A DNA stretch of 44,759 nt from an uncultured Lachnospiraceae bacterium (GTDB lineage Bacteria > Bacillota > Clostridia > Lachnospirales > Lachnospiraceae): the NCBI GenBank assembly GCA_902786365.1, contig CADACD010000022.1:1-44759 (forward strand). Reading direction: 5' to 3'. Below the pieces are notes generated by a model. It did not search any database. It had not been told where the DNA came from and saw nothing but the letters and a program-made list of their open reading frames with translations. Shown piece after piece: positions 711-39,553 of the stretch. The translations under genes were made by a program, and so were the position numbers. Positions within the stretch are counted from its first letter, which is position 1; every line of letters begins with the position of its first letter.

Positions 711-744
711 CGAGCCGCCTCACAAGGGCGGCTCAAGTTTTTTG
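711..744 (+). terminator. Rho-independent terminator after ardA
   Basis: GAGCCGCC (712-719) and GGCGGCTC (727-734) form a perfect 8-bp G+C-rich stem with a 7-nt loop, followed by six T residues at 738-743. It closes the ardA transcription unit and separates it from the WYL module. Confidence 0.9.
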
Positions 745-821
745 TTCTATTACTTTTATTTAAAAACAGATTGACATAAAGATGTTTTCATATACTTTTT
801 GTTTGTTGTCGAAATTATGAT

Positions 822-830
822 TAATTTTGC
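822..830 (+). promoter_or_regulatory. Promoter -7 box for the first WYL gene
   Basis: TAATTTTGC fits the Bacteroidota primary-sigma -7 consensus TAnnTTTG and lies 18 nt before the preferred start at 849. Unlike the other strong promoters in the window, no dyad is visible centred 19 nt upstream, so autoregulation of this WYL gene is not evident. Confidence 0.6.
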
Positions 831-848
831 AACAAAGATTTATTGCTT

Positions 849-1871
849 ATGTCTCAAAATAGGAAAGCATTACTACGATACCGAGTGCTTGATAAGTGTT
901 TTGCTGATAAGCACAACAAGTATTTCATCAATGACCTTGTTGAACGTGTCAATGATGCGCTTGAAGATGCAGCTATATTGCCAGTGTCTAAGCGGCAGAT
1001 ATATGCAGACATAGACTTTATGAAGAGTAGCGATGGATGGGAGGCTCCTATTGTTTCAATACAAGACGGCAAACGGAAGTACCTTAAATATTCTCAAGAT
1101 TTCTCCATTATGGAAACTCCAATAACGAGTACTGAGATGGAACAGCTTGAGAGCTTGATAACTTCATTATCGAGGCTACAGGGAATTCCTATGTATGACT
1201 GGATGGATGAGTTGCTGTCTAATTTACGTAAACGTTTTGGTGGAAGTAAAGAAGATTCAAATTTTATAGGTTTTGATCAGAATCGAGATTTGAAGGGATT
1301 GCGATATTTATCCGATTTAATCAATTTCACAATAACTCATCAAGCGGTTGTTATTGAATACCAGCCTTTTGGGAAAGACGTTCAACAATGGACTATTCAT
1401 CCATACTATTTGAAACAATATAATAACCGGTGGTTTTTGCTTGGTTATAACTCTAAGTATGATGATTTATCATTTATTGCTCTTGACAGGATTGAGTCAT
1501 TGTCAAAAGCCGATATCCCTTTCATAGAAAACAAGGATTTCGATTTTGAGAACTATTTTAAGAATATTATTGGTGTCTCAATCGAGGTGAATAAGATCAT
1601 TGAGCAAGTTTTATTAAAGTTTACACCTGATCGCTTGCCTTATGTCCTCTCAAAACCATTGCACAATTCACAAAAAATTGAAAATCGCCGTGAAGGAATT
1701 ATCTCAATAAAGGTAATTCCCAATAAGGAACTTATTTCAGAGCTTATTTGGTTCGGGAGCGATGTTGAAGTGCTAGCTCCAGACTCGTTAAGAAAAAAAA
1801 TAATACAAAAAATTGCAGAAATGCATAAAAAATATTTTGATGTGAAGAATGACTTCACAACAACTCCCTAA
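849..1871 (+). CDS. WYL-domain transcriptional regulator (module 1)
   Basis: 340-residue regulator with an N-terminal winged-helix region and a central WYL domain: IEYQPF at about 169-174, then the signature NNRWFLLGY with W195-F196-L197. WYL proteins such as BrxR and CapW repress defence operons and release DNA on sensing a nucleic-acid-like ligand. An in-frame TTG lies at 843, but ATG at 849 is better placed. The stop codon TAA forms part of the promoter box of the next operon, so the cognate operator lies inside the last codons of this gene. Matching operators occur at 1841-1859 and 5452-5470. That it represses the kinase pair and the PIF1 helicase is inferred from site position; the family assignment rests on the motif. 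Confidence 0.9.
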   Translation: MSQNRKALLRYRVLDKCFADKHNKYFINDLVERVNDALEDAAILPVSKRQIYADIDFMKSSDGWEAPIVSIQDGKRKYLKYSQDFSIMETPITSTEMEQLESLITSLSRLQGIPMYDWMDELLSNLRKRFGGSKEDSNFIGFDQNRDLKGLRYLSDLINFTITHQAVVIEYQPFGKDVQQWTIHPYYLKQYNNRWFLLGYNSKYDDLSFIALDRIESLSKADIPFIENKDFDFENYFKNIIGVSIEVNKIIEQVLLKFTPDRLPYVLSKPLHNSQKIENRREGIISIKVIPNKELISELIWFGSDVEVLAPDSLRKKIIQKIAEMHKKYFDVKNDFTTTP

Positions 1872-1902: not shown

Positions 1903-4344
1903 ATGCAGACAGCAAACAACACCAACAACTACACAGTAGAAGGCCTCGTCGCCAAGTATCGCAATTTTGTAATGGAACATTGCCCAAAAACTTATGAGGT
2001 CTTTGATTATGTAGATGAGAAAGGTAGATTTCATGCAGAAGATGCTTACATACCTGTATCACCTGATGCAAATGCAGAAGAGCAACTACTTGCAGTTGTT
2101 TACGCTTCTGTTGCAGGTAAAAATGCTAATACTGAAATCGTTGAAGCTTTGTCAAAGTATTCTGACAAGTTCTGTGAGGAAGCACTTCAAGAAGATGAAT
2201 TCTCATACTTGTGCTCTAATTTTAGTGAATTTGTTTCGTACACTTTTGATCATAAATCAGAGTGGTTTATGAGAAGTTCTACCGAGATAGGACTATCAAA
2301 AGAAAGGCTTAGGCTTGTTAATGAGTTTATCCATCCCCAAAATGGATCAACAGTATTCATCGCTGATACAGAACATTGTGAGCAAGCCATACAATTTCCT
2401 GGGTGTGTAATAAAAGGCTTTACTGGTTGGAGCTATAACCATAAAGAGGTTTGGGCACTGGGTGAAATACGAATGTTTGCAGCAGACATCAAGTCTGAGA
2501 TCGTAGCAGGAGAGGAAGTAAACGAAAAATACACTTATCAATTACCTCCAAAAGGCAGTGTTGACTACTTAATATTCCGCAACTGCGAAAACAAATATTT
2601 TGCTCAACAAATATTTGGAACTGAATGTTCAGATATTAATGCATTATATGATCTTCTCAAGCCTGAGGGAAAGATGATTTTATTTGCAGAACGGAAGCGT
2701 GAGTTAGCTGGTAAAGGAGATGACGAATTGCATAATTTCATAAAACGCATAGTTAAAGATAAGACGGTTGAAGCAATTGTCTCATATGAAGACAAGCATC
2801 TTTTTCTTAGAAATAGAAAGGATGAGTACATCTTGCTTGTAATTAGCAAGTCTCCATGCACAAAGTTTTTGGTGAAAAATGAAATTACATCTTTTTGCCA
2901 AGAATTTGATATGACATATCTAGATGATGAAATTCTATGGCCAGGTTACTATGCAGCACAGCGACCACAAAATGGCATTCCTCTTTCTAATATTGTCTCG
3001 CTAAAAGAACTAAGAAAGGGCAAAACTCTTTTTCAAGAAAACGAAAAAGGTGATTGGATTCTACCTGAGTCTATGGCTAATGTTCCTGTAGCTGTACCAG
3101 CTATTATGACTAAGGAATATAAAGATGCTAATCTTAATATGACCAAACTATGGTCAGCATCAGATCCTTCTTTAGAGAATTGGGAAGATGAGATTCGACT
3201 AATAGATAAACCATGCGTTCTTTTATATGGTAAAAATGACAAGTGTGTCATCGGATACATCAATGAGACTCATGATGAAGGAATGGCTACGTTGGATTCT
3301 GTAATCTGTCTTCAGCCAAATGAAGGTGTTGATGTCAGATATGTTGCGACCTTACTTCTTTTACCAGAAGTAAAAGACCAAATAATATCTATCTGTAGTG
3401 GAGAAGTTAACGAGAGGATTTTTAGTGTGATTTTTGACAAGGTTATTGTTCCTAATCACACAGACAAAGAACGTTTTGCTTTTTTAGCTGAAGCAAACTA
3501 TAATGCTTTGATTTCTTCTCAGGAAGAAATGAAAAAGAATCAAGAGAACTATATTTTGGCAGTAAGAATGCGTAAACATGCCTTAAGTCAATCGCTATCT
3601 TCTATGAATGAGTGCTTCACATCATTGAACAAATATCGCCTGCACAATGGAGGTAAATTGTTTGATTTAGATAAGATCACGCCAATAACTGATGATACTG
3701 TAAAAACTTCTTTCGATTTTTTGTCAACAAAATTTGCCGAGATGATGCCATTGGTTGATCGTCTTGCAGATATTGAATATAGTTTTGGCGCTCCTGAATG
3801 GATTGATCCAGAACAATTCATTGAAAATTATATTACTCAAAATTGTGGTGGTTGGTTGTCATTCAAAGCTATTATGTCTTGGGAAAAAGGTGATAATAGA
3901 ATTAAGAATGATATGAGAGACCCTGAATCGGGTGAAATTGTTATTCACAAAGGAGACGCAATCAGTAAACTCCATTTCCCTCCAAAAGCTCTAAACCAAG
4001 TCCTTGAAAACATTATATCAAATGCAAAAGAACATGGTTTCACAGATAGAAATCGTGAAGATTATCAAATTCGTTTTTCTTGGCACGAAGAAGGAACAAA
4101 TCTTGTTGTTGAAATTGAAAACAATGGAGCACCAATACCCAATGATTACAGCACATCAAAATTGTTAGAGTATGGTGTCTCAAGTAAGTTGCATGAAAAT
4201 GGTCACAATGGCATTGGTTGCAATGAAATTGACAACATAATGCATCGTTATAATGGTGGGGTTGAAATCATTTCATCTCCTGACAAGGAATATACTGTAA
4301 AGTATATCCTTACGTTTAAGTCAAATACAATTATAAGTTTCTAA
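1903..4344 (+). CDS. Restriction-subunit-like sensor histidine kinase (degenerate HsdM + HsdS-like + DHp + HATPase)
   Basis: 813-residue protein with an unusual architecture. The C-terminus is a clear histidine-kinase ATPase: N box SNAKEHG (N707), G1 box NNGAPIP (G742) and G2 box GHNGIG (767-772). Just before it, RMRKHALSQSLSSM places His559 as a plausible phospho-acceptor in a DHp helix. The N-terminal half instead resembles type I restriction subunits. A region with the layout of HsdM (LVNEFIHPQNGSTVFIAD, later LLKPEGKMILFAERK) lacks the Gly-rich SAM motif and NPPY. It is followed by an HsdS-like target-recognition and spacer region (IPLSNIVSLKEL, then RYVATLLLLPEVKDQII, then a KVIVPN segment). 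The response regulator follows 13 nt downstream. I infer a kinase whose input is DNA or its methylation state. The kinase domain is firm; the restriction-like half is pattern recognition. Confidence 0.75.
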   Translation: MQTANNTNNYTVEGLVAKYRNFVMEHCPKTYEVFDYVDEKGRFHAEDAYIPVSPDANAEEQLLAVVYASVAGKNANTEIVEALSKYSDKFCEEALQEDEFSYLCSNFSEFVSYTFDHKSEWFMRSSTEIGLSKERLRLVNEFIHPQNGSTVFIADTEHCEQAIQFPGCVIKGFTGWSYNHKEVWALGEIRMFAADIKSEIVAGEEVNEKYTYQLPPKGSVDYLIFRNCENKYFAQQIFGTECSDINALYDLLKPEGKMILFAERKRELAGKGDDELHNFIKRIVKDKTVEAIVSYEDKHLFLRNRKDEYILLVISKSPCTKFLVKNEITSFCQEFDMTYLDDEILWPGYYAAQRPQNGIPLSNIVSLKELRKGKTLFQENEKGDWILPESMANVPVAVPAIMTKEYKDANLNMTKLWSASDPSLENWEDEIRLIDKPCVLLYGKNDKCVIGYINETHDEGMATLDSVICLQPNEGVDVRYVATLLLLPEVKDQIISICSGEVNERIFSVIFDKVIVPNHTDKERFAFLAEANYNALISSQEEMKKNQENYILAVRMRKHALSQSLSSMNECFTSLNKYRLHNGGKLFDLDKITPITDDTVKTSFDFLSTKFAEMMPLVDRLADIEYSFGAPEWIDPEQFIENYITQNCGGWLSFKAIMSWEKGDNRIKNDMRDPESGEIVIHKGDAISKLHFPPKALNQVLENIISNAKEHGFTDRNREDYQIRFSWHEEGTNLVVEIENNGAPIPNDYSTSKLLEYGVSSKLHENGHNGIGCNEIDNIMHRYNGGVEIISSPDKEYTVKYILTFKSNTIISF

Positions 4345-4357
4345 TAATAAAACAAGT

Positions 4358-5413
4358 ATGAAACATTACGATTTAATCCAAGTTCTATGGGTTGAAGATG
4401 ACAAATCAATAATCAATCAGCTCAAAAAAAATGCTTTTTATTCTGGGCTTCAATTAGTTGCATATCCATGTTGGGATGATGCCAAAGAGGCACTTGAGAG
4501 TGATTATGATCGCTGGTCTGCTATCATTCTTGATGCTAAGTGTAAACACCATCGTGATAGCGCTGATAGTGCAATTGTGTTTTTGCGCGAAGCACTCAAG
4601 GATATTTCGGTTCTTGCCGAGAAAAAAGACCGCGTAATCCCATGGTATGTGCTCACAGGAGGTGACACTAGCGAAATTTCGGACAGCATTAATGATGAAC
4701 GCGAAAAATGGGATAAAGATTGGACAGACTCTACGAATAAAAAGTATTACTCTAAGAACACTGATACTGAAATGCTCTATAATCGCATCAGGTATCATGC
4801 AAATGTATCACCACGTCTTCAGATCCATAAATTATACCAAAAAGTGTTTGATGCAATAGTAGAATGTGGTATCGATGATGAGGCTTGTAACAACATTGAA
4901 GATTTGCTTGTTCCAATTCATTTTCCAGAGGAAATTGAGAATAAGGATTTTAATGATAAGTTCAAAAAGGCAAGAATAATTCTTGAGAATATTTTCAGAA
5001 ATATGTCGACTTATGGCATTTTACCTGATTGGGGGAAAAACATAAATGTACGTTGGTCAAGTTGTATTCTATCTGGAAAACCAGCAGTAAAATATATCAA
5101 AGATGGTGATGATATTGTTGTGATAGAGGCAAAAGAACCAATATTGCCTGTGGCGTTATATGATGTTGTTCGCTTAATGGCCAACATTCTGCCAGCTGAT
5201 GTACATGCAAAGAGCAGTGATGCCAACTCAGTAAATCTTCCTGATTACATAAACAGCGTTGACGGCTCAACTTATTTACTTAAGAGCATTGCACTTCAAT
5301 TATGTGACTTAATTCTATGGTATCGTAATTATCTTAGAGATCATAAAGATAAGGAACAGAATGCATTGAAGTACGAAATCAAGGAGCCAAAGTATCTCAA
5401 CTTAAGGAAATAG
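4358..5413 (+). CDS. Response regulator paired with the restriction-like kinase
   Basis: 351 residues. The first ~120 form a receiver domain: LWVEDD gives the acidic pair D14-D15, AIILDAKC gives the phospho-acceptor Asp59, and VLTGG matches the Thr/Ser position after beta-4. No DNA-binding domain is recognisable in the remaining ~230 residues, which are mostly helical (residues about 150-350) and could be an effector or an interaction domain. The gene starts 13 nt after the kinase and is co-transcribed. An operator-nested terminator closes the operon at 5446-5481. The receiver call is good; the output function is unknown. Confidence 0.75.
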   Translation: MKHYDLIQVLWVEDDKSIINQLKKNAFYSGLQLVAYPCWDDAKEALESDYDRWSAIILDAKCKHHRDSADSAIVFLREALKDISVLAEKKDRVIPWYVLTGGDTSEISDSINDEREKWDKDWTDSTNKKYYSKNTDTEMLYNRIRYHANVSPRLQIHKLYQKVFDAIVECGIDDEACNNIEDLLVPIHFPEEIENKDFNDKFKKARIILENIFRNMSTYGILPDWGKNINVRWSSCILSGKPAVKYIKDGDDIVVIEAKEPILPVALYDVVRLMANILPADVHAKSSDANSVNLPDYINSVDGSTYLLKSIALQLCDLILWYRNYLRDHKDKEQNALKYEIKEPKYLNLRK

Positions 5414-5445: not shown

Positions 5446-5481
5446 CTCAGTTGTGAATAATGACTTCACAACTGAGTTTTT
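5446..5481 (+). terminator. Terminator hairpin containing operator O2
   Basis: CTCAGTTGTGA (5446-5456) and TCACAACTGAG (5466-5476) are perfectly complementary over 11 bp and are followed by TTTTT at 5477-5481. It ends the kinase/response-regulator operon while its inner part is the operator of the next promoter. Confidence 0.7.
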
Positions 5482-5512: not shown

Positions 5513-7576
5513 ATGGCAAAGAACAAAACCAATCAAGAGACTCTCAACAAGGAGCAACAAAAGGCCTTTGAGCTTGTGAAGAACACCAACAGCAGCCTTT
5601 TTATTACCGGTAAAGCAGGTACTGGCAAGACTACTTTTGTGAAGCGCATTCAGGAAGAAATCAATAAAACTTTCTTGGTTCTTGCTCCAACTGGCATTGC
5701 TGCGCTCAAAGTTGGGGGGCAGACTATTCACTCGGTCTTCCGTTTTCCATTTGACGTGATTACTCCAGAAACCAGACTTTGGGAAGACCAAAAATCAAAT
5801 CCAGGTCGATATCAGAGGACAAAGAATCTCTTGAAATTGGTTGACGCAATAATTGTTGATGAGGTTTCAATGGTCCGTTGTGATATTGTTGATGCAATGG
5901 ACCGCATTCTTCGCCATGTGATGAGCACATACCAGCCATTTGGTGGCAAGCAGGTTATCTTTGTTGGCGATCTGTGCCAGCTTCCACCTGTTGTAAAGAG
6001 AGAAGATGCAATAATTCTTTCAAGATATTATGGTGGTGTGTCACCATTCTTTTACAAAGCTCATGTTATCAAAAGAATGAATCTTCCTAAGATCGAGTTT
6101 AGGAAAGTATATCGCCAAACAGATAGCGAGTTCATTAACTTGCTCAATAAGATGCGCTCAGGCAAAGTGTCGCTTCGTGACCTTGAATTGATAAACAAAA
6201 ATGTTGGTGCTCCAAAGGACTCTGACGACTATTTTGTTACTTTGACAACAAGGAACCATGTGGCAAGTGACATTAATTATGAGATGCTTGCCAAACTTGA
6301 CGGCGAGGAACACATCTATGAGGGTATTACCTCTGGCAATTTCAAAAAGAGCGATTGTCCAGTTCCCATGACATTAAGGCTCAAAGTAGGTGCTCAGGTT
6401 ATCATTTGCCGCAATAAGTGTGTTGATGGATGTGTTAACGGAACTATTGCTAAAGTTATTGAACTCGGCGATGATTATATAAGAATTGCTCTTCAAGACG
6501 GTCGAGAGGAATATGTTGCACCTGCCACCTGGACAAACTATGAAAAAGTAGTAAATGAAGAGACCGACGAAATTGAGAATCGTGAGGTTGGTAGTTTCAT
6601 TCAATTCCCTTTAAAACTTGCATGGGCTATAACTATTCACAAATCTCAAGGAATGACATTTGACCGTATGCACTTTGACCTTTCGGGTGGTGTGTTTGCT
6701 AGTGGTCAAACTTATGTTGCAATAAGCCGTATGCGTTCGTTAGATGGTCTAACACTAAGCAGTGCTATAATGCCTCATCACATCATGGTTAATCCTGAGG
6801 TAACAGAGTTCTATAAAACCCTTAATGACTATGCAGTTATAGATGATGAGTTGGAAACAGGAACTGCAATCAAGCAATATCTTGATGCAAAGGATTTTGA
6901 TGGAGCAACAAGAGTATGCCTGAATGCAGCTATTGCAAAGGCACATAATGGTGATATGCGAAATGCAGCTCTGATGCTTAAGAGAATGTTTGACGTTATG
7001 CTCGATGACGATTGCTTATTAGGAATGACTGGAGATGAGGTCTTGTTAAACAATGAGACCACGACCTCTAACTTTATAAATGCTGCCTTCTGTCTATATG
7101 GTAACAGATTTGATGAGGCTGTAGTATATGCCGATAAGGTTTTGGCTAGTCGCATGTGTCCAGAGGCAATGTTTGTCAAAGCACGTGCTTTGTATGCTCT
7201 TGGTAAATATGATGAAGCAAATGATGCATATTTTGTGCTTGAAATGACTTCAAATACCAAGTCGAGCAAAATTATTGATCAAAAGCAGTACTTATTTATG
7301 GCTAAGCTTAATGAAAAGCTGGGCAACTCTAATGTTGAAATCTGCAAGAAGCTTATTAAGCTCTGTCCAGAATGTGTTAATGCTTATGCAATTATGCGCC
7401 GTGAAGCAATTAAAGATGGTAAGCAGATTGATGCAAATGGCGACTTGTTTAGATTATTTAATGACACCACGATTTCAGACGAGGAGTTTGTTAATGTGCT
7501 TATCCAAGCCGATAGTAGAGAACTTATTAAACTAAGAAGCAAAGTAAGCCATTTGTGGCCTAAGGCTGCAGCATAA
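5513..7576 (+). CDS. PIF1-like superfamily 1B helicase with C-terminal helical repeats
   Basis: 687 residues. The helicase core spans roughly 1-440: Walker A GKAGTGKTT (33-41), motif Ia APTGIAALKVGG, Walker B VDEVSM (D116-E117), GDLCQLPPV, and the C-terminal ITIHKSQGMTFDR with YVAISRMRSLDGL. This is the layout of PIF1/RecD-like 5'-3' helicases that unwind stalled forks, G-quadruplexes and R-loops. The last ~240 residues are alpha-helical with TPR-like spacing (for example AFCLYGNRFDEAVVYADKVL and ALYALGKYDEANDAYFVLE), suggesting a protein partner. It has its own operator-promoter of the module 1 class, so it probably belongs to the same response. A role in defence is inferred. Confidence 0.88.
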   Translation: MAKNKTNQETLNKEQQKAFELVKNTNSSLFITGKAGTGKTTFVKRIQEEINKTFLVLAPTGIAALKVGGQTIHSVFRFPFDVITPETRLWEDQKSNPGRYQRTKNLLKLVDAIIVDEVSMVRCDIVDAMDRILRHVMSTYQPFGGKQVIFVGDLCQLPPVVKREDAIILSRYYGGVSPFFYKAHVIKRMNLPKIEFRKVYRQTDSEFINLLNKMRSGKVSLRDLELINKNVGAPKDSDDYFVTLTTRNHVASDINYEMLAKLDGEEHIYEGITSGNFKKSDCPVPMTLRLKVGAQVIICRNKCVDGCVNGTIAKVIELGDDYIRIALQDGREEYVAPATWTNYEKVVNEETDEIENREVGSFIQFPLKLAWAITIHKSQGMTFDRMHFDLSGGVFASGQTYVAISRMRSLDGLTLSSAIMPHHIMVNPEVTEFYKTLNDYAVIDDELETGTAIKQYLDAKDFDGATRVCLNAAIAKAHNGDMRNAALMLKRMFDVMLDDDCLLGMTGDEVLLNNETTTSNFINAAFCLYGNRFDEAVVYADKVLASRMCPEAMFVKARALYALGKYDEANDAYFVLEMTSNTKSSKIIDQKQYLFMAKLNEKLGNSNVEICKKLIKLCPECVNAYAIMRREAIKDGKQIDANGDLFRLFNDTTISDEEFVNVLIQADSRELIKLRSKVSHLWPKAAA

Positions 7577-8542: not shown

Positions 8543-10135
8543 ATGAAGCGTACATATATATCTCTATTCAGCAGTGCAGGAGTGGGATGCTACGGATTCA
8601 AATTAAATGGATTTGAATGTGTGGCAACTAACGAATTGCTAGAGCCAAGAATTGAAATTCAAAAAGCTAACAATAAATGCAAATATGATAGTGGGTATAT
8701 TTGCGGAGATGCAACATCACAAGAAACCCACGAATTGATTCAAAAAGAAATAGATTTTTGGAAAGCAAATGAAGGCCTAATTGATATAGATGTGGTGTTC
8801 GCAACACCACCATGTCAAGGTATGTCTACAGTTAATTACAAAAAAACTGACCACGAACAAAAAAGGAATTCTCTCGTTGTAGAAGCAATAAAACTGATTA
8901 AAGATATTCATCCAAAAATTTTTGTTTTTGAGAATGTTCGTGCTTTTATGAAATCTACTTGCACAGATATCTCTGGTCAAGATATGCCTATATCAGACAG
9001 CATTTATAATAATCTTTCTGAAGAATATTTCATATATTGGAAAGTAATAAATTTTAAAGATTATGGCGTGCCATCAAGTCGTCCTAGGACACTCGTTATC
9101 GGAACAAGAAAAAACATTAATATTTCACCACTACTTATTTTCCCAACACGACAAAACGAGATTCTATTAAAGGATTCTATTGGTTCATTTCCTCGCCTTA
9201 GTTATTGCGAAAAGGACAAATCAGACCCATTTCATTTTGCCCGCCCTTTTCCACGATACATGCTAGAATGGATTAAAGATTTAAAAGAAGGTGAAACGGC
9301 TTTTAATAATCCAGATGAAACAAAACCATATACAATAGATGCGCAAGGTAATAGAGTAATTAATAAAGGTGCATATATGGGCAATAAATATCGCAGATTA
9401 ATCTGGGATAGACCAGGTGCTTGTATCGCAACTAGAAGTGATGTTATGTCATCTCAAGATACTATTCACCCTTGTGATAATCGGGTGCTAAGTATACGAG
9501 AGCTCATGACACTTATGACAATTCCCAACTCTTTCAAATGGACTTCGAAAGATGAAGAATTAACTGTTGAGAATGCTGAAGAGTATCTCAAGAAAAATGA
9601 GGGAAACATACGAAGATGTATTGGCGAGGCAGTGCCTACTCAAATTATAAAAGACATTGCCAATAAAATAAACATTGTTTTGGATTATGCAGAATTCAAC
9701 TGTGAATTTGGCTTAAAATCAAGAAATGCATTTATAGAGATAACCAATAAATATGGGCTTCTGCCATACAATAATTCATTTCCCAATGTAGACGATTTAA
9801 AAGAGGATCTACAAGAGGTTAAAGCAAAAGTTGATGGCGTCAAGAATTTTATTCTCTACTATCATCAGATAATTTCTTTCTATTCACATGTCAACTCTAT
9901 TGAGTTTGACGTATACGATACAAGTGAAATTGAAAGGGTGGATATAAATAAATTTATTCAGGTTTTTTCTCATCCCCAAAATGTCAATATAGCATTTGAA
10001 GAATACTATAAGCCTATCAAAGTTTATAATTTACTTATCGAGAACCAGAAATGTTATAATCTTAAACAATCCAAGAAAGGAACAAACAAAAATTCTGTTT
10101 CTGAAAGTGACTCTCAACAATTAGCTCTTTTTTAA
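8543..10135 (+). CDS. C5-cytosine DNA methyltransferase
   Basis: 530 residues with the ordered motifs of C5 methyltransferases: motif I ISLFSSAGVGCYGFK (residues 6-20), catalytic motif IV ATPPCQGMS with Cys91, motif VI FENV (E130-N131-V132), motif VIII FKDYGVPSSRPRTLVIG, and motif X GEAVPTQIIKDIANKI. It transfers a methyl group from SAM to C5 of cytosine at an unknown target. After motif X, around residue 380, there is a helical extension of about 150 residues that is unusual for a stand-alone enzyme and may bind the partner protein. The next gene starts 3 nt after the stop, so the two form one modification/restriction pair. An upstream ATG at 8538 is closed at once by TGA, fixing 8543 as the start. 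Confidence 0.93.
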   Translation: MKRTYISLFSSAGVGCYGFKLNGFECVATNELLEPRIEIQKANNKCKYDSGYICGDATSQETHELIQKEIDFWKANEGLIDIDVVFATPPCQGMSTVNYKKTDHEQKRNSLVVEAIKLIKDIHPKIFVFENVRAFMKSTCTDISGQDMPISDSIYNNLSEEYFIYWKVINFKDYGVPSSRPRTLVIGTRKNINISPLLIFPTRQNEILLKDSIGSFPRLSYCEKDKSDPFHFARPFPRYMLEWIKDLKEGETAFNNPDETKPYTIDAQGNRVINKGAYMGNKYRRLIWDRPGACIATRSDVMSSQDTIHPCDNRVLSIRELMTLMTIPNSFKWTSKDEELTVENAEEYLKKNEGNIRRCIGEAVPTQIIKDIANKINIVLDYAEFNCEFGLKSRNAFIEITNKYGLLPYNNSFPNVDDLKEDLQEVKAKVDGVKNFILYYHQIISFYSHVNSIEFDVYDTSEIERVDINKFIQVFSHPQNVNIAFEEYYKPIKVYNLLIENQKCYNLKQSKKGTNKNSVSESDSQQLALF

Positions 10136-10138
10136 AAC

Positions 10139-13100
10139 ATGAATACAAGTATTGACTATTCTATATTGGGTGACGTCATTATTGGCAGAGTAGACCCTCA
10201 AATATATGCGTTCACAACAGAAACTATTCCTAACTATCTTAAGGTTGGCGACACATATAGGCCGATTCAAACCAGATTAGATGAGTGGAGACGGTTTTTC
10301 CCAAACCTTATCCATCGATACACACATAGTGCAAGACTTGATAGTGGTAATATATTCCGCGACCACTCAGTTCATGATTATTTAGAGTACTCATTGCATT
10401 ATCATAGATTAGAGGCTGATGAAATAAGCCCAGATATATATTATTCTAGAGAGTTCTTCAAAGATGCACAACCAAAAGATATAGATGCGGCAATAGAAGA
10501 TATACAGAGCAGTGAAAAGAAAAAGGATGGACGTTATCATTTCTACACATCTGCACATCTACCAGTAAAGCTAAAATTTGAACGAAATAAAGATTTTCCT
10601 GCCAGGAAAAATCAAGAAGTTGCTATCAATAACTTTATAAAAGCTTATAATAACGGGCGAACAAATTTACTAATGTATGCGGTCATGCGCTTTGGTAAAT
10701 CATTTACCGCCATGTGTTGCGCAACAGCCATAAATGCTAACTTTGTTCTTATTGTATCTGCAAAAGTTGATGTGCGAAAAGAATGGCAAGAAACTGTCGA
10801 AAGCCATGTACGTTTCGAAGGATACGATTTTGCAGATGGAGAAGACTTGGCAAGAGATAACAATCTAATTAGTTCTTATCTAGCCTCAAATAAGAAAATT
10901 GCTCTTTTTTTAACTTTGCAAGACCTTCAAGGTGATACAATAAAAGGAAAACATAAAGAAATATTCAAAGAACAAATCGATTTGCTTATCGTTGATGAAA
11001 CTCATTTTGGAGCACGTGCTGCAGAGTATGGCAAGGTTCTTAGAGAATTTGAGTTATCAAGTAAACAAATTAATAGTGAAATTAAAACAGCCGAAACAAC
11101 GGATGATATCGATAAGGAATTAAAACAGTTAAATACAAAAGTAAGACTTCATCTTTCAGGTACACCCTATCGCATCCTAATGAGTGATGAGTTCACAAAA
11201 GACGATATCATTGTTTTTTGTCAGTATAGTGATATAGTAGATGCAAAAGAAAAGTGGGACGAAGAATATGGTCAAAAGGACGAGTTCGCAGAATGGGATA
11301 ATCCATATTATGGATTTCCTCAAATGATTAGATTTGCGTTCACGCCTAATGCATCAGCTGTAAAAAGAATGAAAGAAATGAGAGAGAAAGGAGTCACATA
11401 TGCTTTCTCGTGTTTGTTTCAACCGGTATCAATTCTAAAATCCCCTGATGGCAGCCACAAGAAATTTGTAAACGAGCAAGAAATACTCGATCTTTTGGAA
11501 GTTATCGACGGCTCAAAACATGATGAAAATCTTCTAGGTTTTTTAGATTATGATAAAATCAAAGAAGGTAAAATGTGCCGTCATATTGTATGTGTACTTC
11601 CATTTCGTGCTTCATGCGATGCGCTTGAACAACTAATTATTTCAAACAGGAATCGTTTTAAAAATCTTAGTCAGTATGAAATAATTAACATTGCTGGAGT
11701 AGAAGATGAAAGAACTTATAGCGACACAGATCGTGTAAAGGCTAAAATATCATCATGCGAAGCAGATGATAAGAAGACGTTGACTCTAACGGTCAATCGA
11801 ATGCTTACTGGTAGTACTGTAAAAGAATGGGATACGATGCTTTTCTTTAAAGACACGGCTTCACCTCAAGAATACGACCAGGCAATTTTTAGGATACAGA
11901 ACCAATATATTAAAGTTTATCTAGATGATGAGGGCAAGGAAATTAGGTATAATATGAAACCTCAAACTTTGTTGGTTGATTTTGACCCTAATCGAATGTT
12001 TCGAATGCAAGAGCTTAAATCTCAGTTTTACAATGTAAATACTGACAAAAATGGCAACAGTAAACTTAAAAGCCGTATAGAACGTGAGCTTGTTATTTCT
12101 CCAATTATTACATTAAATCATGGTATAATGAGAAGAGTAGAGGCTACAGATGTAATGGCTGTTGTCCAACAATACTCACAAAACAAGAGTATTTTAGATT
12201 TAGCATCTGACACCCCAATAGATTTTGCTCTTTTCAATAACGATGAATTTAGAAAAGAGATAGAAACAATGAAAGCTATAGATGCATCCAAAGGTTTAGA
12301 ATTTAGGCCAAATGAAGGAGATAATGATAATGATTACAATATTCCAGAAATTGAATCTTCAACAACAGATGAACCTGATAACAGTTCTTCAAATACAAAC
12401 AACTCGAATAGCGATAGTGATAGAAACGAACAAGAAGATTTAGCTAAAAAATATAAAGCATATCAAGCTAAAATTTTATTCTATGCGTTTCTGTCAGAAA
12501 GTAATGTTGAATCGATCGAAGATGTTATCAATAGCATAATAAATGGAAACCTTGACAACAGAAGAATAGCCAAGAATCTTGGTCTTAAAGTACCAATACT
12601 TTGGTTGATTCTCAATAATTGTAATTCTTTTATCCTTCGACAACTTGATTATAGGATAAAAGATATTAATGATCTTATGAAAGATGAGGATTTGTCTCCC
12701 ATAGAAAGAGCAAATAGAGCAACCCGAAAATTTGCTCGAGTTTCAGACTCAGAAATTGTAACTCCATCTATTTTAGTTGATGAACTCATTTCTTTAGTTC
12801 CAGAGAATGACATAAAATCCGCAAGTGGTATCCTTGATATATCTACCGTACAAGGAGAAATCGCATGTGGATTAAATCGCAAATTTGGGGAATCTATTAA
12901 TTCAAAAATTTTCTCAATCCCCTCTTCTCCATTAGCTTATGAACTAACAAGAAAAATATATACAATCATAGGTATACCTGTAAATCAAATTCTTAATTTC
13001 TATTCTTCTGACCTAATAGGAGAAAAGGCAGAACAGTTTATAGATGAAATAAAACGCCTGAATATTGATTTAGTTATTGGCGTTCCGCCATTCACTGAAA

Positions 13101-14095
13101 AAACTGAAGGAGGAAGAGGTGATGGTTATAATGCTATTTATCATAAATATTTTAATCTTATAAAAGATCAAATTGGCATTGAAAAAATTGCAATAATGAT
13201 GCAATCAACATGGTATTCAGGAGGCAGGGGAGAAGGTCTGGATTCATTTAGAGATTACATGCTGGAAACATCACATATTACGGAATTTCATGACTATCCT
13301 AATATTGAAAGCTATATTAAAAGTGTTACAACATTAAGAGGTGGTATTTGTTTGTTTTATTGGGATATAAATCATGATGGCGACTGTTTGTTTATTAATC
13401 GTATAAATCATCAGGACTATTCATTGAGAAGAAGATTGAGATATGTTAATGATAATTATAGAGCTGATTTTTTAATTCGTTGGAATGAAGGCCTATCAAT
13501 TTTAAGAAAAGTTTTAGAGGTTGAGTCTTCTTTTATCTATCAACCAGGCTCTAATTTAATGCATAAAAGAAATCCTTTTGGATTTCCTAATAAAGCTGAT
13601 AATTTCTCGACAAGAAAAACTTCCCGCGCTAAAACAAAAGTATATCTAGCTAAGGGTAAAGTAGGATATGCACTCAAATCTCAATTTAGTCACACACCTG
13701 AGAGAAATTCTCTACGTAACAGATGGAAAGTTTTGATTGCAAAATCAAGTTCTGGTGGAGACGAGTTACCGCACTTAGTAATTAGTGAACCTATTGTTTC
13801 AGAACCAGGCAGTGTCACTGCTAATACACACTATATAATTGATGGGGTTCCTACAAAACGTGAAGCTAAGAATTTAGCTTCATATATGAGAACTAAATTT
13901 TTCAGATTTATGGTTATGTTATTAAGAAGCAATCAGAATATGCGTGTAGACATGTATCAATTTGCTCCTAGATTAGATTTTACTCGTTCATGGTCAGATG
14001 ATGATTTATATAATAGATATCATCTAACTGAGGAAGAAAGAAATTTTATAGAACAAATAATAAAAGATATGGACAGTAAAGTTAAGCGTAATTAA
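10139..14095 (+). CDS. GIY-YIG / SF2 helicase / degenerate N6-methylase restriction protein
   Basis: 1318-residue multidomain protein. Residues ~15-105 resemble a GIY-YIG (T5orf172-like) nuclease: IYAF (22-25), YLKVGDT (33-39), Arg46 in RPIQTRLDEW, then a VHDYLE helix and SREFF. Residues ~160-640 are an SF2 helicase: Walker A-like MRFGKS (G186-K187-S188), DETH (286-289), SGTP (340-343) and late helicase motifs near NRMLTGSTVKEWD. A Ser/Asp/Asn-rich linker (~725-770) leads to a C-terminal region resembling Eco57I-type N6-adenine methylases, but motif I is LDISTVQGE (899-907) without GxG, and NPPY is replaced by VPPF (982-985). It is probably the NTP-dependent cleaving subunit partnered with the C5 methyltransferase, with the dead methylase used for recognition. 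Domain calls for the helicase are firm; the nuclease and its catalytic Glu are less certain. Confidence 0.78.
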   Translation: MNTSIDYSILGDVIIGRVDPQIYAFTTETIPNYLKVGDTYRPIQTRLDEWRRFFPNLIHRYTHSARLDSGNIFRDHSVHDYLEYSLHYHRLEADEISPDIYYSREFFKDAQPKDIDAAIEDIQSSEKKKDGRYHFYTSAHLPVKLKFERNKDFPARKNQEVAINNFIKAYNNGRTNLLMYAVMRFGKSFTAMCCATAINANFVLIVSAKVDVRKEWQETVESHVRFEGYDFADGEDLARDNNLISSYLASNKKIALFLTLQDLQGDTIKGKHKEIFKEQIDLLIVDETHFGARAAEYGKVLREFELSSKQINSEIKTAETTDDIDKELKQLNTKVRLHLSGTPYRILMSDEFTKDDIIVFCQYSDIVDAKEKWDEEYGQKDEFAEWDNPYYGFPQMIRFAFTPNASAVKRMKEMREKGVTYAFSCLFQPVSILKSPDGSHKKFVNEQEILDLLEVIDGSKHDENLLGFLDYDKIKEGKMCRHIVCVLPFRASCDALEQLIISNRNRFKNLSQYEIINIAGVEDERTYSDTDRVKAKISSCEADDKKTLTLTVNRMLTGSTVKEWDTMLFFKDTASPQEYDQAIFRIQNQYIKVYLDDEGKEIRYNMKPQTLLVDFDPNRMFRMQELKSQFYNVNTDKNGNSKLKSRIERELVISPIITLNHGIMRRVEATDVMAVVQQYSQNKSILDLASDTPIDFALFNNDEFRKEIETMKAIDASKGLEFRPNEGDNDNDYNIPEIESSTTDEPDNSSSNTNNSNSDSDRNEQEDLAKKYKAYQAKILFYAFLSESNVESIEDVINSIINGNLDNRRIAKNLGLKVPILWLILNNCNSFILRQLDYRIKDINDLMKDEDLSPIERANRATRKFARVSDSEIVTPSILVDELISLVPENDIKSASGILDISTVQGEIACGLNRKFGESINSKIFSIPSSPLAYELTRKIYTIIGIPVNQILNFYSSDLIGEKAEQFIDEIKRLNIDLVIGVPPFTEKTEGGRGDGYNAIYHKYFNLIKDQIGIEKIAIMMQSTWYSGGRGEGLDSFRDYMLETSHITEFHDYPNIESYIKSVTTLRGGICLFYWDINHDGDCLFINRINHQDYSLRRRLRYVNDNYRADFLIRWNEGLSILRKVLEVESSFIYQPGSNLMHKRNPFGFPNKADNFSTRKTSRAKTKVYLAKGKVGYALKSQFSHTPERNSLRNRWKVLIAKSSSGGDELPHLVISEPIVSEPGSVTANTHYIIDGVPTKREAKNLASYMRTKFFRFMVMLLRSNQNMRVDMYQFAPRLDFTRSWSDDDLYNRYHLTEEERNFIEQIIKDMDSKVKRN

Positions 14096-14387: not shown

Positions 14388-16391
14388 ATGACTGATTTAA
14401 ACCCGATAAACTATCTTGACTTGTTGTCAATTCCAGAGTTGTGCGAGAAGAACTTCTTTATCCCTGAATATCAGCGTGGGTATAGGTGGGGTGAAGTTCA
14501 AATAAGGCAACTCTTGGAAGACCTTTATACATTCTTCTACGATGATAAGGCAACAGGCAATTTCTATTGCCTTCAACCTGTCGTTGTCAAAGAAATGACT
14601 GCTGAAGATATTGAAAATTTGGGCTTGAAGTCAAGCAAAGACAACAATCGTTGGTATGAAGTTGTTGACGGTCAACAACGTTTGACCACAATAAAAATCA
14701 TTCTTATGCTTGAAAATCTCTTGGACGAAGACAAAGAATTGTCATTTGAGATTTTCTATAAGACACGCCCCGAATTGGCTAAGTTCTTTTCATTGATTGG
14801 AAAGCAGAAGAACGAAGAAAAGAAATATCAAATCATTGTTCAAACTGAAAGAAAACTTGATATTGACTCCTGGCACATCATAAAAGCCGCCCAACGGATA
14901 ATTGACTGGTTCCAAAATGAGGAATTGCCATACAAGCCGAACATAGCCAGCTTTAAGGGCAGGTTTTATGAATCATTTTCGGGTGACAAATCAAAGCAGA
15001 AGTCCGTTCAAGTAATCTGGTACGAATTGCGTGATGATAGCGACCCATACGATATGTTCAAGCGGCTGAACGACAGAAGCATATCACTTAATAACGCAGA
15101 GCTTATTCGTGGTATGCTGTTATCGGACTCTGCAAAATATAAGTTCGACCCATCACTTTTGGAGCAATTTAATGACGAAGTGAGACCAGTCGTTGAGGAA
15201 CGTGAGCAAGCAAGGAAACAAAGCCACATCATTGAGATGTGGGACATCATCGAGAGCCAACTCCGTGATGAAAAATTCTGGGCATTCATCAAAGATGACA
15301 ACCGTAGCGAACAATACAGTTGCCGCATCGAATATATTTTTGATATTCTTGCCCAAAAAGATTCAAATCAGAAAGATCCGCTATATACTTATTTATCGTT
15401 TGATAAATACATTAAAGATAATGTATATGCCGACCTTTGGGATTTATGGCTCTCTGTTGAAACTTACTTCTCGTTACTCAAAAGTTGGTTCAACAACTCC
15501 TATTTCTATCACAAAATAGGCTTTGTTATTTCTGAGTTGGGAACCACGTCCTTGATTGGAATGTTAGCCGATGCGATGAAATTGTCAAAAGATGATTTCA
15601 AGAAGTCTATCGACAATCGTATTTCAGCAATCATTCGGGACAACAGAAATCCGAACAAGAGCATCCTCGATTATTCTTATGATGATAATTATGCCCTTTT
15701 GAAGAAAGTTCTGTTCCTGTATAATGTGGAAACAACGCTACAACAAGGAAAAGAATTTTTTCCTTTTGATTTGTACAAAAGTAAAGATTGGACGTTGGAA
15801 CATATTCACGCACAAAACTCTGACCGTATAGACCAAAGCGATAAAGGCAAATGGGAGATATGGTTCAAAGAAAACGAGAAAGTTATAAAACGCCTTATGT
15901 ACCGGTTGCCAAATGACGAAAAACTCAAAGCACTTTATGAAAACAACTTCAAGCCTGAATATGAAAAGTTTGAAAAGAATCAAAACCTATATTCTTTCGG
16001 CGAATTGACAAAGCTGTTTGACCTTGTGTTCAAATACTTTGATGAGTTAAATCAAAACGAAGACAAACCTGCTGCCATACACAACATATCCAATATGGCA
16101 TTACTTGACGGCATCACAAACACAAGCATCAGTAACTCGGTGTTTGAAGTCAAACGCCAAATGATTCTTGATGCTGATGCTTCAGGCAAATATATACCTA
16201 TTTGCACGAAGAAAGTTTTTTTGAAGTACTACAATAAAAACGAAGAATACTTTACTGTGCAACAGAATTTCTATTGGAGCGAAACCGACCGACAACACTA
16301 TCTAGACGATATTAAGCGAGTGTTGAGCGAGTATATTCATGAAGATAATCTTTCAACTCCAAATGATGAAAGCGAGGTGACAAATGAATAA
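14388..16391 (+). CDS. DUF262/DUF1524 GmrSD-type restriction protein
   Basis: 667 residues. The N-terminal DUF262 NTPase shows IPEYQRGYRW (about 24-33) and VDGQQRLTT with D94-G95-Q96-Q97-R98, as in GmrS, BrxU and SspE. The C-terminal DUF1524 domain carries the HNH-like motif TLEHIHAQN (E471-H472 to H474). Known members use NTP hydrolysis to control cleavage of modified or phosphorothioated DNA; the substrate here is unknown. The coding end overlaps the next DUF262 gene by 8 nt, implying translational coupling and probably a complex. Confidence 0.88.
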   Translation: MTDLNPINYLDLLSIPELCEKNFFIPEYQRGYRWGEVQIRQLLEDLYTFFYDDKATGNFYCLQPVVVKEMTAEDIENLGLKSSKDNNRWYEVVDGQQRLTTIKIILMLENLLDEDKELSFEIFYKTRPELAKFFSLIGKQKNEEKKYQIIVQTERKLDIDSWHIIKAAQRIIDWFQNEELPYKPNIASFKGRFYESFSGDKSKQKSVQVIWYELRDDSDPYDMFKRLNDRSISLNNAELIRGMLLSDSAKYKFDPSLLEQFNDEVRPVVEEREQARKQSHIIEMWDIIESQLRDEKFWAFIKDDNRSEQYSCRIEYIFDILAQKDSNQKDPLYTYLSFDKYIKDNVYADLWDLWLSVETYFSLLKSWFNNSYFYHKIGFVISELGTTSLIGMLADAMKLSKDDFKKSIDNRISAIIRDNRNPNKSILDYSYDDNYALLKKVLFLYNVETTLQQGKEFFPFDLYKSKDWTLEHIHAQNSDRIDQSDKGKWEIWFKENEKVIKRLMYRLPNDEKLKALYENNFKPEYEKFEKNQNLYSFGELTKLFDLVFKYFDELNQNEDKPAAIHNISNMALLDGITNTSISNSVFEVKRQMILDADASGKYIPICTKKVFLKYYNKNEEYFTVQQNFYWSETDRQHYLDDIKRVLSEYIHEDNLSTPNDESEVTNE

Positions 16392-18768
16392 TATCGGAAA
16401 ACTGACAACCTTTGCAAGATTGCTGAAAGAAGAAACAGTCATCATGATTCCTAAGGTTCAGAGAGACTATGCATATGGGCGCATAGAGCCGAAAGTCATT
16501 GAAGTTCTGAACGGAATGCTTGATACTATGTTTAAAGCCGTCAGAGACGACAAATCCGAGTTGTTCGATTTTGTCTATGGCGGCTCATATGTCAAAAAAA
16601 GCAATGAGGGCTTGATACCCCTTGACGGTCAACAGCGCCTCACAACATTGTTTCTGCTACACTTTTTTGCCTCGGTAGTTCAACCTGAAATACAGCAGGA
16701 TAAAGACGGTATTTCAGTAGATACGCTTAAGAAATTCAGATATGAAACGCGGCAAACCGCCACTGATTTCTGTGATGCACTCGTGGGTAACATCCGTAAC
16801 GAGATAATTCCCAGTTATAACTATTCCGAAGGCAAACCGATTAAAGAGTTGATTAAGAACAGTCCGAAATTTTTGCCATCTTATGATTCAGACCCTACCA
16901 TTGTTTCAATGCTGAATGTACTGGAAATCATTGAGCAAAAATATTTGGCAAATCCGATTGAAAACCTATGGGACAAACTCACCACACGCGACAACATACA
17001 ATTCTATGCACTGTCGCTAGAGAAGTTTGGACTTTCAGATGACTTGTATATCAAGATGAACTCGCGTGGTAAGAAACTTACCAATTTTGAGATATTCAAG
17101 TCAGACCTTGAAAAAGCGATTAACAAAATCGCCCCATCGCTGAAAGACGATTTGTCAAAGAAGATTGACAACGAGTGGATGGATATTCTGTGGGATTATG
17201 CTAATCTGTTTGAATATGAGAACGATGCAGATCTCATTAAGAAAGCCGACGACGGCTTTATGAACCTGCTTAATAACATTTTCAGAATTGAGCTTTTCCG
17301 CCGTGGCATTGAAACTTCTACCAAGCGAAACGCTTTGATTGAAGAAATAATCACAGATGAAGAATCAATAAGCAGAATTATCTCAATTCTAGATACGCTG
17401 TCTGATATTCATAAAAACGGAGGCATTGAAAGCCATTGGCAACAGTATTTCTATTTCTCCAATAATGTTGTAGGTGAAGACGATAAAATCAGACTTTTCT
17501 GGCGACAAGAACAAAGTCAAAAGCCAGTTTTCCATCTGGCTATTGACAGAGAACTTTCAGTTCCTGAAATTGTTTACTTCTATGCTCTTTATCGCTTGAA
17601 ATCAACTGACACTGATTTTGAGACTTCGTTCCGAAGTTTACGCATTGTGCGCAATCTCGTTACATCCAACGTGGATGCAAATCGTGCGCAATATAAAATG
17701 TTGTATGGATTTCTTTCTGATGTGGATTGCATAATAAACGCCAAAGGCAATGTGCCCGACAACGACGGCTATACATACGAATTTATCGGCACGGCGGTTG
17801 AAGAAGAACGAAACAAAATTCATCGTCTCTCAAAAGAAGACTATAATTCTTTGCTTCGTTTTGAGAACCACAACATCTTACGTGGTTCAGTAATTCTCTT
17901 TGTTGACGCATATCTTCAAGAAGACTCAACCTTGCTCTTTGAGCAGTTGAAGCATTTTGAACTTATTTTTAATAATGATTGGGCGAATGACTTTGAAAAA
18001 TATCGCATCAACTTCATTCAGCCCGAAAAATATATGCAATATGATCCATCGATGGAGAATGAAAAAAACATCACTCGTCGTTTCTTCATTCATAATCCTA
18101 ATGATTTCTCATTGTTCTTCATTAAAAACGAAAGGCGAAAGAACCAAGAGGCCATTCTTCGTGTTTTAAAAAATTACATAAAAACCACTGATGATTTTAA
18201 GTCTGGTTCAGAAATATGTGAAAACTATGAAATAGATACATGGCAGTATTATTATGTCAAATATCCCAGTTCAAACATCTATGATACCAAATACGGATGT
18301 TATGCTTGGGATGAAATAGATAATAAGCCACTTGAAATGGTCATCTTGAACAGTTCATACCACAGTGCCTATAATATCGAATGGAAAATGCTCAACAGGA
18401 TTTTATTTTGTGAGCTAAAGGATATGAATATCAATGTGACATTGAACAACCATTCCGACCCGTTAGTTTTAAACGACTATGGCATTAGTTTTGACATAAC
18501 CCAACAAGGTTGGCAGATAGCGTGTAACGACAACAAAGTCATTGATGCATTGGAAAACGATGAATCTTTCAAGGTTTCTGTGGTTGGAGAGGAAACCCCA
18601 AATCTCCACATTGTCGATTTCGGACAAAATGATGACTTTGACTACATCGATTTGGCAAAACAGATTGTTGATTCAATCAAATCTGTTTATAGCACAATGC
18701 AGAAAGAACTCATCATTGAGTTCGACAACATGGACGTAGAATCAAGTAAGGAACAATTACAGGAATAG
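16384..18768 (+). CDS. Second DUF262-domain protein, partner of the first
   Basis: 794 residues with a second DUF262 NTPase: MIPKVQRDYAYGR (about 21-33) and PLDGQQRLTT (L80 to R85), plus LYIKMNSRGKKLTNFEIFK, the usual downstream DUF262 motif. Unlike its partner it shows no DUF1524 HNH motif; the long C-terminal region is of unknown fold. Overlapping start (GTGACAAATGAATAA, start at 16384) with the preceding gene indicates coupling. The pair probably divides labour: one chain with the nuclease, the other for regulation or target recognition. Confidence 0.8.
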   Translation: MNNIGKLTTFARLLKEETVIMIPKVQRDYAYGRIEPKVIEVLNGMLDTMFKAVRDDKSELFDFVYGGSYVKKSNEGLIPLDGQQRLTTLFLLHFFASVVQPEIQQDKDGISVDTLKKFRYETRQTATDFCDALVGNIRNEIIPSYNYSEGKPIKELIKNSPKFLPSYDSDPTIVSMLNVLEIIEQKYLANPIENLWDKLTTRDNIQFYALSLEKFGLSDDLYIKMNSRGKKLTNFEIFKSDLEKAINKIAPSLKDDLSKKIDNEWMDILWDYANLFEYENDADLIKKADDGFMNLLNNIFRIELFRRGIETSTKRNALIEEIITDEESISRIISILDTLSDIHKNGGIESHWQQYFYFSNNVVGEDDKIRLFWRQEQSQKPVFHLAIDRELSVPEIVYFYALYRLKSTDTDFETSFRSLRIVRNLVTSNVDANRAQYKMLYGFLSDVDCIINAKGNVPDNDGYTYEFIGTAVEEERNKIHRLSKEDYNSLLRFENHNILRGSVILFVDAYLQEDSTLLFEQLKHFELIFNNDWANDFEKYRINFIQPEKYMQYDPSMENEKNITRRFFIHNPNDFSLFFIKNERRKNQEAILRVLKNYIKTTDDFKSGSEICENYEIDTWQYYYVKYPSSNIYDTKYGCYAWDEIDNKPLEMVILNSSYHSAYNIEWKMLNRILFCELKDMNINVTLNNHSDPLVLNDYGISFDITQQGWQIACNDNKVIDALENDESFKVSVVGEETPNLHIVDFGQNDDFDYIDLAKQIVDSIKSVYSTMQKELIIEFDNMDVESSKEQLQE

Positions 18769-25840: not shown

Positions 25841-25857
25841 TCCAAACTTTTTCCAAC

Positions 25858-25895
25858 TTGTCCCACAAAATGAGACAACATAGGCCTAATTTTGC
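25858..25895 (+). promoter_or_regulatory. Operator-promoter O3 (TTGTCCCA-N5-TGAGACAA)
   Basis: Arms at 25858-25865 and 25871-25878 (one mismatch) are centred at 25868, 19 nt before the box TAATTTTGC at 25887-25895. It starts 17 nt after the WYL stop and drives the AddB-like gene at 25918. The same half-sites recur at 33497-33517. Confidence 0.75.
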
Positions 25896-25917
25896 AAACG
25901 AAATAAAACAATAAGAC

Positions 25918-37377: not shown

Positions 37378-37381
37378 TATC

Positions 37382-38905: not shown

Positions 38906-38940
38906 GTTCTACAACTTTCTTTAATATACCTTCCTGCATA

Positions 38941-39552: not shown

Positions 39553-39553
39553 A

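Follow-up and report, generated by a model that had tools for sequence, protein, structure and literature searches.

The window analysed here, an entire contig of 44,759 bases from an uncultured Lachnospiraceae bacterium (CADACD010000022.1), begins with genes in the order ardA (14-691), WYL-domain regulator, histidine kinase (HK), response regulator (RR) and Pif1-type helicase. The open reading frames of HK (1903-4344, 813 amino acids) and RR (4358-5413, 351 amino acids) are separated by 13 bp and lie where a preliminary description of the locus had placed them, with the WYL gene directly upstream. The sensor half of HK has the layout of the type I DNA methyltransferase subunit HsdM, with catalytic motifs lost, followed by an HsdS-like target-recognition domain (TRD), and this architecture is real and recurrent. 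A signalling function of the WYL–HK–RR cassette is likely, judging from sequence, and the reading favoured here, with somewhat better than even confidence, is a mobile cytosolic two-component switch whose sensor comes from a dead HsdM–HsdS half-enzyme fused to a kinase core. HK and RR divide into the following parts.

1903..2292, plus strand: HK residues 1-130, N-terminal part, mostly helical (model)
2293..2937, plus strand: HK residues 131-345, methyltransferase fold with catalytic motifs lost, borders approximate (Foldseek, profile and motif tables)
2938..3462, plus strand: HK residues 346-520, HsdS-like TRD, borders approximate (PADLOC Specificity_I; Foldseek match to M.TaqI over 433 columns)
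3463..3777, plus strand: HK residues 521-625, DHp domain, with the H559 codon at 3577-3579 (model; conservation of H559)
3778..4344, plus strand: HK residues 626-813, HATPase catalytic (CA) domain (Pfam HATPase_c in 20 of 20 members)
4358..4804, plus strand: RR residues 1-149, receiver domain, with the D59 codon at 4532-4534 (model and Foldseek; conservation of D59 and K133)
4805..5413, plus strand: RR residues 150-351, mainly helical output part, outside known families (model, conservation, Pfam)

In the predicted structure of HK (AlphaFold2 on 18 sequences; mean predicted local distance difference test score, pLDDT, 81.3; predicted template-modelling score 0.65; alignment A10, without the kinases of loci L024 and L026), an unbroken helix of residues 521-581 starts at the end of the TRD and carries H559, and a second helix covers residues 600-622. 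Among the best 50 of 485 Foldseek matches of this model in the PDB below E 0.001, the methyltransferase side is represented by M.TaqI (E 1e-10, 433 columns, template-modelling (TM) score 0.55 on the target), CamA, BpuSI and the Vibrio one-chain methyltransferase–TRD (M–TRD) enzyme 7eew, and the kinase side by HK853, WalK and ZraS. M.TaqI and the kinases each span part of the chain, which is what a fusion would give. Structure prediction of the N-terminal half had been named beforehand as a check able to overturn the restriction-enzyme likeness, and what it yields is a methyltransferase fold and a TRD. At the level of sequence, HATPase families alone exceed the Pfam cut-offs on the window HK (HATPase_c, residues 695-800, E 3e-8) and N6_Mtase is unmatched; against PDB sequences HsdM is unmatched by the window HK, and a profile of the 10 members of its clade gives no match up to E 10. 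PADLOC Specificity_I matches residues 395-561 weakly (E 0.0032) and, together with the TRD of the predicted structure, upholds the HsdS-like region. The HsdM likeness of the window HK rests on predicted structure and on profile comparison with sister kinases.

These sister kinases come from a family that is rare in the genomes related to the window and recurs elsewhere. A scan of genome contigs covering 84,980 species with the trimmed RR alignment alone picked 15 loci (24-76% identity), all 15 of which carry such a kinase directly upstream; since the scan patterns are narrow, this number is a lower bound. With the window, L024 and L026 added, the family comprises 18 loci, 20 HKs and 20 RRs, with two tandem HK–RR pairs each in L043 (11135-13425) and L045 (3556-7472). 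HK and RR are adjacent at 18/18 loci and in 20/20 pairs, with gaps of -41 to +20 bp in 19/19 measured; the twentieth pair, in L047, has an RR cut by the contig end and its gap is unmeasured. Because it recurs at 18/18 loci, 15 of them picked by RR alone, the pair is beyond chance. The distances of HK and RR also correlate (Pearson 0.91, and 0.79-0.80 for the sensor parts, in 171 comparisons from which shared ancestry was not removed). The locus records are Bacteroidota by title, many from rumen or gut; L047, labelled Erysipelothrix, may be misbinned, as its contig is just 3.5 kb long.

Searches with tblastn turned up one relative of both HK and RR in a contig from human faeces whose record is that of a phage; three plasmid records of Myroides hold relatives of RR. 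The locus L024 (MT835483.1), deposited as Bacteriophage sp., carries a conjugative-transposon TraM and a type IV coupling protein and is therefore probably a conjugative element. With an RR profile, a full-length RR was found in 1/398 genomes of the phylum and 1/397 of the family, each time the window's own, and the remaining matches in those genomes do not extend past the first 63 positions. One of them, in genome G029 (L031; 64 residues at 34% identity), sits at the edge of its contig; no kinase match follows within 1.5 kb, and the locus was not counted. Scans with a single kinase gave no relatives in genome or viral contigs, and alignment scans of viral contigs gave no matches. In 194 related genomes the kinase matched, besides itself, ATPase parts only, with a single exception (G164, HK residues 112-193), which was rejected as a relative since by our reading it sits antisense to a murE-like gene.

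Across the 20 kinases, Pfam HATPase_c matches 20, N6_Mtase eight (best 1e-29) and Methylase_S three, and Specificity_I, the best-spread PADLOC model, matches 10. A profile of eight sister sensors matches EcoR124II HsdM in the PDB at 3.7e-21 and 7eew at 6.3e-14 (profile positions 97-512), with four other methyltransferase sequences also below 1e-13; matches to HsdS chains are weak (1.4e-4 and 1.6e-4), and no single stretch passes alone. The window-clade profile aligns with the sister profile at an hhalign E of 1.5e-27 over 427 columns. The Myroides kinase resembles a type I M subunit annotated on a phage (3e-18), and the record of the Myroides plasmid names the kinase an N-6 DNA methylase. The proposal of an HsdM and TRD scaffold carrying a HisKA/HATPase kinase thus finds agreement in the predicted fold and in the profiles of sister kinases. 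The loss of catalytic motifs is borne out as well: the canonical motif IV, [NDS]PP[FYWH], occurs in 0/19 kinases having a methyltransferase part, PP being kept at its place in seven (NPPL twice, CPPF twice, TPPF, YPPM and FPPI) and gone in 12, and the S-adenosylmethionine motif I is unrecognisable in the window HK and, by eye, closer to HsdM in L026, L050 and L055. Two variant layouts were seen by eye: the second kinase of L043 is a short TRD–kinase (437 amino acids) without a methyltransferase part, and the L050 kinase has an apparent additional N-terminal TRD, giving an S–M–S–kinase order.

On the kinase side, H559, N707, H711, N740, G742, G770 and G772 are invariant in 20/20 members. The preliminary description had named H559 as the phospho-His, and its place in the DHp helix before the HATPase domain keeps it a sound candidate; of the ATP-site boxes named with it, N707, G742, G770 and G772 stand, whereas G767 is a glycine in 13/20 kinases only. 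In the receiver part of 19 RRs, position 13 is E/D in 19/19, position 14 is D in 18/19 (N in one), position 100 is T/S in 19/19, and D59 and K133 are present in 19/19, holding down to about 20% identity (alignment A9, which omits the cut RR of L047). The output part has R206 and E210 invariant in 19/19 and H283 in 18/19, with a gap in one. In the RR model (pLDDT 82.5; alignment A11, without the RRs of L024, L026, L047, L052 and L054), Foldseek matches receivers, ranks 1-8 being PorX chains with a TM score of 0.29 on the query, so that the likeness to PorX is confined to the receiver part. At E 0.01, Pfam recognises no family in the 19 RRs, receiver families included, and helix-turn-helix families give no match to nine RR C-terminal halves; with Pfam and Foldseek showing none, the earlier statement that RR has no recognisable DNA-binding domain holds. 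An assignment of the output part to DUF4145 (HEPN-like, as in some HsdR) is not claimed, the Pfam E-values being 0.038 and 0.065 among nine C-termini and the hhalign probability, against a set from HsdR-type proteins, 0.2%.

Taken as a pathway, the favoured switch would have started from a one-chain HsdM–HsdS half-enzyme that lost methyl transfer, the long helix of HsdS type serving as the fusion joint to a HisKA/HATPase kinase core. The dead methyltransferase/TRD clamp would take up or release a nucleic-acid ligand or a look-alike, and the change, whichever its direction, would pass along the single helix 521-581, leading to phosphorylation of H559 and probably to transfer of the phosphate to D59 of the adjacent RR. 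The helical output of RR may act by protein contact rather than by DNA binding, on companion proteins that would differ by clade, the Pif1 helicase in the window clade and type I or IV restriction genes elsewhere, and the WYL protein is the probable regulator of expression for all three genes. Known two-component sensors respond to small molecules, light, ions and proteins. It is tempting to propose a new class of signal transduction, with the target recognition of a restriction enzyme as phosphorelay input, DNA being read in the cytosol and swappable TRDs, as in the layouts seen by eye in L050 and L043, giving programmable specificity; this wider claim is possible, at somewhat less than even confidence. 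In such a relay, sequence, methylation or a TRD-clamped site would be read, and the answer would be phosphorylation of RR. Should DNA or its mimics still be bound by the scaffold, a cell that meets foreign nucleic acid or an anti-restriction weapon could turn the contact into a graded phosphate signal, and restriction and signalling would be bridged. As the cassette is compact, with three genes, it is amenable to work with purified proteins.

The nature of the input is the weaker side of the preliminary description. That HK reads the sequence or the methylation of DNA stays a hypothesis, and two observations bear on it. In two Myroides elements (L026 and L055), WYL is 100%, HK 97.9%, RR 95.6% and the neighbouring HsdM 95.1% identical, and TRD1 of the neighbouring HsdS is replaced: in windows of 50 columns, 24-52% of aligned residues are identical in the first four and 80-98% in the five full ones that follow. 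It follows that the kinase does not track TRD1 of its neighbour. The TRDs of the window clade are, moreover, more acidic than those of HsdS, with a net charge per 100 amino acids of -2.7 (n = 10) compared with -0.9 in other members (n = 10) and -0.4 in HsdS regions (n = 29); the Mann-Whitney p against HsdS is 0.012 for the window clade, with overlapping ranges, and 0.72 for the other members. The HsdS control covers 29 of 30 HsdS loci of relatives, L090 being left out for a stop. The TRD swap and the charge lower the likelihood of strict methylation sensing and, in the window clade, of binding to DNA or DNA mimics. A strict form of the methylation hypothesis, in which the kinase reads methylation at the target sites of a neighbouring restriction-modification (R-M) system and adjusts expression of that system, draws on the hsdM–hsdS–hsdR genes behind RR in L024, L026 and L055 and on a C5 methylase and a IIG-like gene 3.1 kb behind the window RR. 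It is rather improbable: the Myroides kinase is almost unchanged beside a swapped TRD1 (a shared TRD2 half-site would still allow it), no R-M genes were noticed at L046, L050 and L051, where most neighbours were not profile-scanned, and RR has no recognised DNA-binding domain.

Since the scaffold resembles 7eew, a one-chain M–TRD enzyme solved with Ocr, HK could instead be a decoy or guard, an HsdM/HsdS look-alike that baits anti-restriction DNA mimics of the Ocr or ArdA kind and fires on binding. PARIS is a known Ocr-sensing system. The lost catalysis and the ardA gene directly upstream in the window agree with a decoy, which is nevertheless unlikely, as ardA was found in 0/17 other loci (tblastn at 1e-4; three have little upstream DNA) and a bait for acidic mimics should stay basic, whereas the TRDs of the window clade are acidic on average. 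A GHKL domain that serves a restriction complex as ATPase or ATP-driven clamp, with phosphotransfer vestigial, is quite improbable. The change from D to N in the G1 box and the acidic residue lost after the His in 17/20 kinases would fit such a clamp; the invariance of H559, of D59 and of K133 and the match of the HK model to full HisKA and CA kinases speak against it. In favour of the clamp, a linkage of GHKL proteins to R-M systems is published in PMC8011034, which also draws a link to paraMORC. That HK is an ordinary sensor kinase resembling methyltransferases by accident is hardly credible and in our view refuted: the window HK has no N6_Mtase match and its clade profile matches nothing in the PDB, but N6_Mtase is found in eight of the 20 members, structure and profiles agree, and one member is annotated as an N-6 DNA methylase.

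The switch derived from a dead half-enzyme has evidence to answer as well, and several points weigh against it. The G1 box has N740 in place of the usual D in 20/20 kinases, departing from the canonical D-x-G-x-G, and the residue following H559 is A in 16/20, acidic (E/D) in 3/20 and I in one; with both departures from textbook kinase motifs, autokinase activity, as judged from sequence, is not certain. AgrC-type kinases likewise have no D in the G1 box, and these departures are treated as a variable kinase feature that is no bar to the histidine kinase class. The sensor parts drift faster than CA in 9/9 clade-mates of the window (identities of 22-53% for the methyltransferase part, 29-50% for the TRD and 51-62% for CA), which fits diversifying recognition and equally relaxed constraint; relative to DHp (43-59%), they are not always the faster-diverging. 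The acidic TRDs of the window clade make tight binding less likely, for DNA as well as for its acidic mimics. Finally, Pif1, the presumed target in this clade, may be a mere neighbour, as a terminator-like hairpin parts its gene from RR.

The remaining features of the cassette and its borders lie around the pair.

712..734, plus strand: terminator-like hairpin 3' of ardA, upstream border of the cassette (pattern scan)
798..829, plus strand: promoter-like site of the -33/-7 Bacteroidota type (TTTG ... TAnnTTTG) before WYL (script, consensus match only)
849..1871, plus strand: WYL-domain regulator (Pfam WYL 4.9e-10, WCX 4.4e-11)
5446..5476, plus strand: terminator-like hairpin of 12 pairs followed by T5, 3' of the RR gene (pattern scan)
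5513..7576, plus strand: Pif1-type helicase, companion gene of the window clade (Pfam PIF1 7.2e-36)

With a promoter-like site before WYL and hairpins at both borders, WYL–HK–RR looks like one predicted transcription unit. The promoter and hairpin calls are consensus and folding predictions; the consensus is that of Bacteroidota promoters, and the hairpin pattern found seven sites in the scanned stretch where 4.7 are expected. Strong hairpins also lie 3' of RR in L042 and L046. For the WYL gene, the listed start is TTG 843, and ATG 849 is a better fit to relatives; its product is 40-41% identical to those of the WYL genes adjoining the two first homologues. As had been stated for the window, a WYL gene lies ahead of the pair, and it does so on the same strand in 15/15 loci with enough DNA (L041, L044 and L047 are too short upstream), 12/12 among the loci picked by RR alone. 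It is the next gene in 11 loci, including L050, where it appears split over two reading frames (5910-6935; 76 and 244 amino acids) and so may be broken or mis-sequenced. In L043 a gap of ~1 kb with small open reading frames separates WYL from HK, and the interval in L045 holds the first HK–RR pair and a further two genes. A DUF1016/YhcG-type PD-(D/E)XK nuclease gene stands between WYL and the kinase in L048 (874-2100) and L049 (6249-7457).

Behind the pair, the genes vary by clade, and at some loci no companion of the kinds below is seen. A Pif1 helicase gene follows in 9/9 testable loci of the window clade (the L041 copy is cut by the contig end, and L047 is cut too early to be scored), and its product in the window shows weak tetratricopeptide-repeat matches under the Pfam cut-off in its C-terminal part. 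No full-length Pif1 homologue was found among 59 other relatives; 48 of these have partial matches, within residues 6-216 of 687 at most, and Pif1 as a ubiquitous neighbour was accordingly rejected. Behind RR, hsdM and hsdS, then hsdR, follow in L024, L026 and L055 (the L024 and L055 genes being assigned by eye or from their similarity to those annotated in Myroides), and the next gene after the cassette is hsdR in L052, a GmrSD enzyme in L053 and a Schlafen-AlbA protein in L042. By eye, apparent housekeeping genes border the cassette on at least one side in L042, L046, L048 and L052, so that a defence island is not obligatory; the preliminary assignment to such an island is right for the window and does not extend to L042 and L046, whose outer neighbours read as housekeeping.

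Further genes were noted in the window. At the contig start, directly before the cassette, lies an ArdA-type anti-restriction gene (14-691; Pfam 1.1e-27), which was dropped as a conserved cassette partner because it was not found in the 17 other loci. A C5 cytosine methylase is followed by a 1318-amino-acid type IIG-like restriction-methylase (8543-14095; PADLOC 1095 bits), and two large adjoining proteins are encoded at 14388-18768, the first matching GmrSD and the second alike by eye. A second WYL gene, similar to the first, precedes genes for a PD-(D/E)XK nuclease and a UvrD-type helicase, AddAB-like (24899-31817), and might belong to a separate defence unit. On the minus strand (36577-40834) are a reverse transcriptase with an uncharacterised neighbour of 278 amino acids and a pair of RloB and an AAA_21 ATPase.

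The nearest published kind is the HEF_HK/Response_reg_2 pair (PF19191/PF19192) found by R-M systems (Bellieny-Rabelo et al. 2021, PMC8011034). According to that paper, it too joins a soluble HK to an adjacent RR without other known domain and is over-represented near R-M genes, with C5 methylases conspicuous nearby, but its sensor is usually an N-terminal HATPase_c_3 (paraMORC-like), in place of the HsdM and HsdS parts seen here. PF19191 and PF19192 match 0/20 kinases and 0/19 RRs at E 0.01, and the six Pfam families found in the 20 kinases do not include HATPase_c_3; a genome search with PF19192 gave no match anywhere, controls included, and is hence uninformative. The main text of PMC8011034 does not mention WYL, Pif1, HsdM or HsdS. 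The field is therefore not empty. The preliminary description knew of no described system with this architecture; in the open-access literature, preprints excluded, no published sensor built on the HsdM/HsdS machine was found, and the passages covered from PMC12839542 and PMC7641849 do not describe an HsdM/HsdS–kinase architecture. PorX of Bacteroidota resembles the cassette RR in its receiver part and carries a PglZ domain (PMC12839542), whereas the cassette RR matches no PglZ-type family in Pfam.

Among defence systems, the PADLOC model mad2 of MADS (mad1-mad8) matches 7/20 kinases (best 1.5e-15), presumably through the methyltransferase/TRD part, and mad8 matches Pif1 weakly (5.8e-4). MAD2 is a DNA methyltransferase of an eight-gene system, whereas the methyltransferase part of the cassette is fused to a kinase and accompanied by an RR. 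Detocs (DtcA-DtcB-DtcC) employs two-component logic in phage defence with an output that is not a transcription factor, a sensor based on tetratricopeptide repeats and a dedicated effector. Compared with Detocs, the cassette has an M–TRD sensor and a helical output outside known families; Detocs is not among the first 25 of 78 PADLOC families for the kinases, no Detocs profile having been run by name. With type I HsdM–HsdS and the one-chain 7eew, HK shares the fold, the order of methyltransferase and TRD and the long helix behind the TRD; it differs from them in having lost the catalytic motifs and gained a kinase core and an RR partner.

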